DNA of 64,000 bases from Chthonomonas sp. (GTDB lineage Bacteria > Armatimonadota > Fimbriimonadia > Fimbriimonadales > Fimbriimonadaceae): contig JAEURR010000008.1 of assembly GCA_016788115.1 (NCBI GenBank), positions 62,001 through 126,000 of the forward strand, read 5' to 3'. Every line of letters begins with the position of its first letter. The stretch's first letter is position 1. Shown here in pieces: positions 8,314 to 10,814 of the stretch. Both the position numbers and the translations under genes were made by a program. The notes beneath the pieces are model-generated. The model made no database searches. It had not been told where the DNA came from and saw only the letters and a program-made list of their open reading frames with translations.

Positions 8314-9324
8314 TTGAGCACCGACGACCAAGGAAGCTGTGCCCAATCTAAGACAGACCGGTACGACCAATTCGGCCTCCTCCATATGGTAAGGGTGTTT
8401 GATCAGCGCCTCAATGAGCTTGAGTCCCGTGACATGCTGAAGCTCATCGATCGGGATCGTCTAACCGACCTAAGGGAGAAGATCGCCGAATGGTTCATCG
8501 CAGTTCAGATTGACCTATCTACAGATATGATGAGGCTGCAGACTCTTCCCGAAGGGGCCTTCCTTAAGGATGCAGTCATCCCTGACCCCAATCGGCTCAC
8601 TCTGCTTTACAGGGAAGCTGCGGAAGCGAGGATCTCTGAAGATCATCGCAAAGGGACTTCGATCGCGCTTGAGATTTGCGTGACGTCGCTGCTCAAGTTG
8701 CTAATAATCGCCGTTCAGGATCTTCCTCGTCGAAATCCAGACGGATCGTTTGATCGCAGTCACGCTAAGGCTGCGATTGACCCGCTTCGCGAACACCCTT
8801 ACATCCTCCGCAACTTTAGGGGAATGTGGAGCCGCCTCAAGAGAGGGTTGGTTGACTACTTGAACGCAAGGACGGCCTGGCTGCAAGCTCACGGTTATGA
8901 AGTTCACGCTCAGCAGGTCACTCTCTCCGCAGATCTAGGCCAGTTGTTCTCACAGCTTGGACGCGCATTCTATGGCGACTATCTTTCGACAACCCCAACC
9001 GCCCTTGCCGCAATCAGAACGGCAATCATCGGTGCTTTAAGCCTTCGCGACGACATTGGCGTCGAGCGATTACTTCAGTTGCGAACACCCGCATTGATCG
9101 AGTCATTGGAAGCAGCCGGATTCCGCCCCTTTGAAGATACGCGAGCGTTTGTCGAACTTGTTAGGTCGGCCGAGACTTACGTGCTTCTAGGCGCATTGCC
9201 CAATCCAATCGACGAACACACGCTGCTGATCTTGGTGGAGCAATACTTCTTGCACCTCCAAACAACAAAGCTGAGCGCCGACGCAAGCTTGAAGGCAAGA
9301 GAGTATTTGAGGTCGCAGATTTGA
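8314..9324 (+). CDS. Unknown helical protein, first gene of coupled pair
   Basis: I do not recognise this 336-residue protein. It is predicted largely helical, charged and soluble, with no signal peptide, membrane segment or nucleotide-binding motif visible. The chosen start is TTG at 8314, with a GGGGTGA ribosome site just upstream. Its stop overlaps the TTG start of the next gene by four bases (TTGA), so the two are almost certainly translated together and may form a complex. It lies inside the repeat-bounded segment, downstream of the ars operon and a palindrome cluster. A role as partner, antitoxin or sensor for the HEPN-like protein downstream is inference only. Confidence 0.7.
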   Translation: MSTDDQGSCAQSKTDRYDQFGLLHMVRVFDQRLNELESRDMLKLIDRDRLTDLREKIAEWFIAVQIDLSTDMMRLQTLPEGAFLKDAVIPDPNRLTLLYREAAEARISEDHRKGTSIALEICVTSLLKLLIIAVQDLPRRNPDGSFDRSHAKAAIDPLREHPYILRNFRGMWSRLKRGLVDYLNARTAWLQAHGYEVHAQQVTLSADLGQLFSQLGRAFYGDYLSTTPTALAAIRTAIIGALSLRDDIGVERLLQLRTPALIESLEAAGFRPFEDTRAFVELVRSAETYVLLGALPNPIDEHTLLILVEQYFLHLQTTKLSADASLKAREYLRSQI

Positions 9325-10814
9325 GCGGTTGGATCGTTCGAATAGGCTCGGCAGAGGTCTCAGAGCTACTCCTTCCCGAGAGCAACCTCCACTTAGCTGA
9401 AGCGATGAAGGACTCGTTTCGACTGCTATTGAAGTTTGAGCCAGACGTTCTAGCTTCCGTGGACCTTGGGGCACGACTTCACGTCCTGATTCGGCAAACT
9501 CCGAACTCGGAGCCAGTGTCAGTTTTTCATGGGTTCGTCGTCGAAGCGAACTTTGACGAGACTACGCTTACCCTGACGGGAGAAGGCATGGCGCTCCAGA
9601 TGAAGGAATTCAAGACTGGAGGAAAGTTCGGCAAGGGTTTGAAACCCGAAGAAATCTTGTTCTACATGCTGAAGAGCGTCGACCCTGGATTGACTGACCC
9701 CGCCTACATCAGCCAGTTCTCTGGAACGGGCAGCCTTGCAGATCGAGTTGAGTTATTCAGGCGGCGGACATTCCATTACGTCCTCCCGTGCCCTGCCATC
9801 GCAGACATCGGTGAATCTCTCCTGATCGGGAATGCCCTCATTTACGACTGGAAATCGTCGGGGACTTTTGATGATGATCTCATTGCGGCTTCGTTCCGCA
9901 AGGATGAACTTCCAGAAGAATGGGAACATCCCGTTCGAATCCGGATGCCAATCGACTGCTGTGGGTTCGTGGAGGGCTTCCAAGATGGACTCGATCGGAG
10001 CAACGAGGTCTTGGATGCGGTCTCGCTAGTTCTTAACCGTACAGCCTTGACCACTCAATCTGGCTTCAGGTGGAACTCATACGATCGGCGAATCCGTGGG
10101 CTAGACACTCGTCGGTCCCGTTGGGCGTACCTTCGAGAAGTTCATCCTAACCCGCAACGATATTGGACACGTTGGTTTGATGAGCACCTTGACAGCGGCA
10201 AGAAGGCTACTCGCGGCTATATTGATTCTGGCGAGCCCTCATCAGCGCTTTCGAGGGCTCTGGATATCTCACCAGGAGCAAGGACCGGCAGTGAGACACG
10301 TCTCGTCAGCGCTCTGAGGGCCATGAGGCAATGCCGAGAAGCCGAAAACCCGGTCGACGGAGTTAGCCACTTGTTTCGGGCCATTGAATACGTCGCGGGC
10401 AGCGAGATCATGGAAGCAGTTCTTATTCCGGCGCAACTCAAGGAGATTCAGCGCCTAATAAAGGAACCCATCCACGAATACCTGGTGAATATCGGGATGG
10501 AGAAGGGTGCAGCAGATCGAATCCGCAGCCTTATTGTGACCCAGTTGGCGCGTGTAAACGAGCACCCCCTCCGAAACAAGTGGAACGCTGTCGTCACGCG
10601 ACTCGAAGTACCGTACTCGAAGGACGATGGAGCGCTTCTCTGGGGGCACCTGCGAAGAGCACGAAATCTTGATATCCACGGAGAGTCGGCCGCTCTTAAG
10701 CGTGCAGATGTGTTGCGTGGATACGCGATTGTAGAAAGGGTTGTGTTGGCCATGCTTGAGCATGTTCCTTCAGATCGCGATGTCTGGGTTGAAGCGACTC
10801 GAACGGAGTTTTAA
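9321..10814 (+). CDS. Unknown protein with beta-rich N-terminus and C-terminal HEPN-like domain
   Basis: This 497-residue protein starts with about 110 residues that look beta-rich (alternating strands around LLKFEP, LHVLIRQ, VSVFHGFVV, TLTLTGEG). A mixed middle follows, then a helical C-terminal domain of about 150 residues. That domain contains RRARNLDIHGES, an R-x4-H arrangement (Arg448, His453) typical of HEPN ribonucleases and of the ApeA-type RNxxxHG sequence. HEPN proteins often act in abortive infection or toxin-antitoxin systems. The TTG start overlaps the stop of the preceding gene. The N-terminal part could be a ligand- or phage-protein-sensing module, but I cannot assign it to a family. 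Nuclease activity is inferred from the motif alone. Confidence 0.65.
   Translation: MSGWIVRIGSAEVSELLLPESNLHLAEAMKDSFRLLLKFEPDVLASVDLGARLHVLIRQTPNSEPVSVFHGFVVEANFDETTLTLTGEGMALQMKEFKTGGKFGKGLKPEEILFYMLKSVDPGLTDPAYISQFSGTGSLADRVELFRRRTFHYVLPCPAIADIGESLLIGNALIYDWKSSGTFDDDLIAASFRKDELPEEWEHPVRIRMPIDCCGFVEGFQDGLDRSNEVLDAVSLVLNRTALTTQSGFRWNSYDRRIRGLDTRRSRWAYLREVHPNPQRYWTRWFDEHLDSGKKATRGYIDSGEPSSALSRALDISPGARTGSETRLVSALRAMRQCREAENPVDGVSHLFRAIEYVAGSEIMEAVLIPAQLKEIQRLIKEPIHEYLVNIGMEKGAADRIRSLIVTQLARVNEHPLRNKWNAVVTRLEVPYSKDDGALLWGHLRRARNLDIHGESAALKRADVLRGYAIVERVVLAMLEHVPSDRDVWVEATRTEF

Follow-up and report, generated by a model that had tools for sequence, protein, structure and literature searches.

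HEPN domains generally act as metal-independent RNases. Their linkage to restriction-modification (R-M) operons is an established form of multi-layer defence, in which the RNase is thought to provide a second, suicidal line (PMC3710099), and R-M operons also harbour some of the ApeA proteins (PMC3710099). The association of HEPN effectors with R-M operons is already known. The pair of genes discussed here is new to the four family libraries that we searched, in keeping with the preliminary description, to which the pairing had appeared undescribed. It lies in the window, the whole stretch of 64,000 nucleotides of Chthonomonas sp. DNA that was analysed (Table 1). With a confidence somewhat better than even, we read it as a mobile two-gene module of the abortive infection or toxin-antitoxin type, consisting of a HEPN effector and a new kind of partner.

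Both genes start with TTG and share the four bases TTGA (9321-9324), exactly as the preliminary description had it, and possible ribosome sites precede the starts (GGGGTG for gene 1, GAGGT for gene 2). Third codon positions account for most of the differences between the window and the closest homologous pair, in genome G033 (21/12/68 in gene 1, 49/32/141 in gene 2). The dN/dS ratio is about 0.14 in each gene (0.048/0.335 and 0.077/0.543), a low value that rests on a two-sequence comparison and is not assignable to the branch of the window alone. Because of this ratio and the third-position bias, both are real genes under purifying selection. The GC content of the pair, 0.538 against about 0.58 around it, is below that of the surroundings in both genomes. 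Divergence from G033 at fourfold sites rises from 0.225 up to about position 10379 to 0.635 beyond it (permutation p<=0.0005), and dS in gene 2 from 0.31 to 1.32. Such a jump points to a probable exchange of the HEPN-encoding end of gene 2 with a more diverged allele.

Table 1. Features of the gene pair and its flanks (window coordinates)
Feature	Position	Strand	Remarks
Direct repeat copy, left edge of neighbouring ars cassette	4689..4719	.	Repeat search
Degenerate att-like repeat, left edge of pair cassette	8085..8155	.	nhmmer E 1.5e-7, 26.8 bits
hsdS 3' remnant, 24 bases	8294..8317	+	AAAGCGTTTCGGGGTGAGCTTTGA = K-A-F-R-G-E-L-stop; stop overlaps gene 1 TTG start
Gene 1 (P0001)	8314..9324	+	336 aa; without known family; predicted partner or regulator; homologues always directly 5' of gene 2
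Gene 2 (P0002)	9321..10814	+	497 aa; predicted HEPN effector
N-terminal beta domain of P0002, residues 1-96	9321..9608	+	pLDDT ~55; VIA Z 6-8
HEPN-like helical domain of P0002, residues 323-481	10287..10763	+	pLDDT ~70-83 mostly; 46-60 around residues 361-385 and 401-410
Probable recombinant 3' part of gene 2	10379..10814	+	~3x neutral divergence from G033 copy
Predicted catalytic R-x4-H	10662..10679	+	R448-N449-L-D-I-H453
att-like repeat, right edge of pair cassette	10946..11034	.	nhmmer E 6.9e-8

Neither P0001 nor P0002 has a match in Pfam, PADLOC, PHROGs, NCBIfam or the sequences of the PDB, and the homologues of P0001 are equally without a Pfam match; the earlier remark that the first protein resembles nothing known thus holds for these libraries. 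Scans of genome contigs and viral contigs with either protein, and TBLASTN searches of plasmids and phages, yielded no relative. A single viral match (L003) was discarded, as it looks like a phage resolvase with KDELPEEW in common, and profile matches at E ~0.005 in another phylum turned out to be ClpX and were dismissed as chance.

Four of the roughly 291 genomes available for the phylum contain the pair, whereas about 106 other genomes lack it. When 201 relatives were searched with P0002, the phylum with P0002 profiles, and 397 genomes with a P0001 profile, only the same four genomes came up, namely that of the window (G000), G033, G252 and G265. Identity to the window proteins is 87% and 90% in G033, 25% and 19% in G252, and 24% and 18% in G265. 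In all four, the P0001 homologue (336-352 aa) lies directly upstream of the P0002 homologue and overlaps it, and profile searches of 290-397 genomes detected no genome with either gene alone. The two genes thus form an old unit with a sparse and patchy distribution. That they strictly occur together is the best reason to believe that P0001 and P0002 cooperate.

The preliminary description had assigned the C-terminal part of P0002 to the HEPN ribonucleases on the basis of the string RNLDIHG (residues 448-454). A lone R-x4-H string is not significant in P0002, which contains three of them, but only R448-H453 is kept on both sides in all four homologues, and R448, N449, H453 and G454 (RN-x3-H-G) are invariant across about 25% identity. 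An AlphaFold model built from the four homologues (two-sequence input gave a pLDDT of 33) is usable for the C-terminal domain only. Residues 323-481 are there predicted, with moderate confidence, to form a HEPN-like helical bundle. The closest solved structure in the VIA comparison is the HEPN protein 2hsb (rmsd 2.8, 113 residues aligned), with a Z score of 9.5 that is moderate for a helical bundle and can, according to a warning of the tool, be reached by such bundles by chance; further HEPN matches are Csm6 (8jbb, Z 7.8), 2q00 (Z 7.0) and 2jpu (Z 6.6), while unrelated helical structures score about Z 6.2. P0002 thus combines, in this model, the all-helical bundle of the HEPN superfamily with its R-x4-6-H motif, including a polar residue after the arginine. 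The optional Ex3[KR] motif, which is not universal in the superfamily, is absent at the invariant E325 and E356. In the model, the R-x4-H motif lies at the end of a long helix (434-452), in agreement with the description of HEPN helix 3 (PMC3710099).

No significant sequence match of P0002 to any HEPN family was obtained. HEPN_Apea (PF18739) and the ApeA N-terminal domain had no Pfam match at E<=5 in the four P0002 homologues. The hypothesis that the pair is an ApeA system found no support in the profile comparison, as hhalign against ApeA of the same phylum gave an E value of 0.05-0.08 and a probability of about 1%. The alignment covers the motif region only, with both RN-x3-H motifs in register. 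With HEPN proteins as closest structural matches and an invariant RN-x3-H, the data support a HEPN-like C-terminal domain, for which a catalytic role is predicted.

The beta-rich N-terminal half that had been expected for P0002 is only partly borne out: residues 1-90 are modelled largely as strands (pLDDT ~55), and the pLDDT of residues 90-313 falls below 50. The N-terminal model weakly resembles phage baseplate-hub and tail-tube barrels as well as flavin split barrels (Z 6-8), and a Foldseek search with the full P0002 model found nothing at E<=0.001. We treat the likeness to barrels as a lead only. If it were real, the barrel might be a captured baseplate-hub or tail-tube-like decoy for monitoring the tail-assembly proteins of phages, and P0001 might be the lock; tail assembly would then unleash the HEPN RNase, and the module would spread in single-operon cassettes at a tRNA site. 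We consider this scenario a long shot.

In G033, the gene order is hsdR, a 227-aa HEPN-like gene, hsdM, hsdS, gene 1 and gene 2, after which come PDC-M34A (DUF5343), listed by PADLOC as a candidate system, and another gene for an R-x4-H protein. The pair is the end of an intact type I restriction operon in a locus rich in defence genes, and hsdS (L004 11423-12583) overlaps gene 1 by TTGA, as gene 1 overlaps gene 2. This R-M locus (L004 6606-16472) encodes three different R-x4-H proteins, namely the 227-aa protein between hsdR and hsdM, with the motif RNRVAH, the P0002 homologue, and a 184-aa protein after the DUF5343/PDC-M34A gene.

In the window, homology to the G033 DNA starts exactly at 8294 (from L004 12560 onward), at the first base of the hsdS remnant, and there is none upstream. 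The genome of the window, which is 97% complete, contains no member of the N6_Mtase family, which is present in 13 of 14 control genomes, and no match to the HsdM of G033. Because of the remnant and the missing methyltransferase gene, the window pair has, judging from the sequence, been orphaned by the loss of a type I R-M operon. In the simplest history, it moved, or stayed behind, together with the very end of hsdS. The pair has been kept intact without the R-M genes, and therefore apparently can do without these R-M subunits.

The link to the hsd operon invites comparison with a guard of the kind exemplified by PrrC with PrrI (PMC3710099). P0001 and P0002 would then bind HsdR, HsdM or HsdS, be held silent, and fire when a phage blocks restriction. 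The position of the G033 pair at the end of the hsd operon, where it overlaps hsdS by TTGA, and the descent of both close copies from this arrangement are as expected for a guard. However, the pair is kept in the window's genome despite the absence of an N6_Mtase, no hsd genes are found in about 19 kb around the G252 and G265 pairs, and P0002 is without the ABC ATPase of PrrC. We regard a guard as unlikely, albeit with an appreciable chance of being correct. The persistence of the pair without hsdM instead favours a self-contained module.

The window pair stands alone between two att-like repeats, in an array of cassettes beside a tRNA-Glu gene. A direct repeat of 29-31 bp occurs in exactly four copies genome-wide (at most 3 mismatches), all on one strand and within 21 kb. 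An nhmmer model made from the two longest copies (~107 bp) revealed two more degenerate ones, at the left edge of the pair cassette and at C8:49551-49627 (E 4.9e-5), beside tRNA-Glu(CTC). In 20 shuffles of the same 81 kb the best score was 10.5 bits, against 26.8 for the copy at 8085. As att sites do, the repeat looks like a degraded version of the 3' end of tRNA-Glu with its downstream flank, and it may thus be att-like. The modules between the repeats are a nitroreductase-type set, a two-component system with phosphatases, a DUF4011 helicase alone, an ars operon with a metallophosphoesterase, and P0001-P0002 alone.

The array spans C8:49551-73035 (in the window to 11034; L046 4551-17000), and no copy of its repeats, of 31-107 bp, exists elsewhere in the genome. 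No recombinase gene was seen within the array. In the congener G001, a search for the empty site found only the tpiA side in common. The helicase (PADLOC PDC-S37/Hhe) is the sole gene of its cassette, extends from window 1-4643 (minus strand) into L046 16008, and has a frame break near 3558. The arsenic resistance cassette adjoining the pair appears to encode a double-length ArsA-type ATPase (5485-7332, plus strand) after ArsR and ArsD-like genes. An ORF at 11040-11477 (minus strand), apparently a Na+/H+ antiporter-like C-terminal end with a signal-peptide-like start, has the look of array-edge debris. Repeat-bounded cassettes without an integrase at a tRNA gene are worth a study of their own.

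The gene loss evident in this array from the hsdS remnant and the broken helicase gene raises the question of whether the window pair itself has become functionless after the loss of hsdRMS and persists by chance. No sigma-70-like promoter was found ahead of it in the window, which would fit such decay. In contrast, both frames and the motif are intact, and dN/dS is low, with the caveat about branches given above. A decaying leftover is, in our opinion, quite improbable.

The two distant pairs have other genomic homes. In G252, the pair is the cargo of a prophage with terminase, portal, capsid and primase-like genes, most of them assigned by inspection of the sequence, the primase and an integrase by Pfam. 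SLFN_AlbA_2 and RelA_SpoT proteins adjoin this pair (L026 12831-15437) and are candidate defence cargo. The G265 pair appears to lie among glycoside hydrolase and sugar-degradation genes, with no visible defence gene. The suggestion in the preliminary description of a defence or stress unit is compatible with these neighbourhoods, which comprise a locus rich in defence genes with a type I R-M operon, a prophage, and a metabolic setting in one of four cases, hence not consistently. The G265 setting would suit a protein that has the HEPN fold but does not act as an RNase effector and might, for instance, bind RNA and regulate a neighbouring operon. Some HEPN families are indeed non-catalytic (PMC3710099). 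However, such families tend to lose the catalytic motif, which is invariant in all four copies of P0002, and a regulator specific for one operon is hard to reconcile with contexts that differ in every distantly related genome. We judge this alternative to be distinctly unlikely.

In the self-contained module that we favour, P0002 would be the effector, with its HEPN domain acting as a metal-independent RNase via R448 and H453. Once released, it would cut cellular or phage RNA. P0001, translationally coupled upstream, might hold P0002 inactive, sense infection, or both, and the beta-rich N-terminus of P0002 may serve as the sensing or P0001-binding part. In the G033 lineage, where the module follows the type I R-M operon, it would add a second line of defence to restriction. 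In the lineage of the window, all of the R-M genes except the final 24 bases of hsdS were lost, and the pair was retained. We infer the defence role, as well as the anti-phage action, toxicity, RNase activity and the restraint or sensing by P0001. The absence of a defence context for one of the four pairs (G265) and the size of P0001, which is large for an antitoxin, speak against a module of this type.

ApeA proteins (ApeA-NTD1 and HEPN_Apea) are similar to P0002 in their length of about 500 aa, beta-rich N-terminus, and C-terminal HEPN domain with RN-x3-H, but P0002 differs in always having a dedicated upstream partner gene. HEPN-MNT and similar toxin-antitoxin systems share with the pair the two overlapping genes, one of them HEPN. 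In contrast, P0001 and its homologues are proteins of 336-352 aa without a nucleotidyltransferase or other known domain (no Pfam match), and P0002 has a long additional N-terminal region. HEPN genes inside type I R-M operons, such as that for the 227-aa protein of G033, are found in the same operon as the pair and have the R-x4-H motif, but this one encodes another protein at another position, and the pair can move alone. The PrrC and RloC anticodon nucleases resemble the pair in the C-terminal HEPN RNase (predicted in P0002) and the linkage to type I R-M (G033). They differ in the fusion of an ABC ATPase to the HEPN domain, as P0002 is without a Pfam match to one, and in that the pair persists without R-M genes. 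Embedding in a type I R-M operon, a PrrC trait, is seen in G033 and as a relic in the window, whereas the G252 and G265 pairs have no such operon around them. A natural before and after comparison is offered by the two genes with a whole hsd operon in G033, and with 24 bases of hsdS in the window. With it one can test whether a HEPN nuclease associated with R-M needs the R-M system, as in the PrrC model, or is a free-standing traveller.
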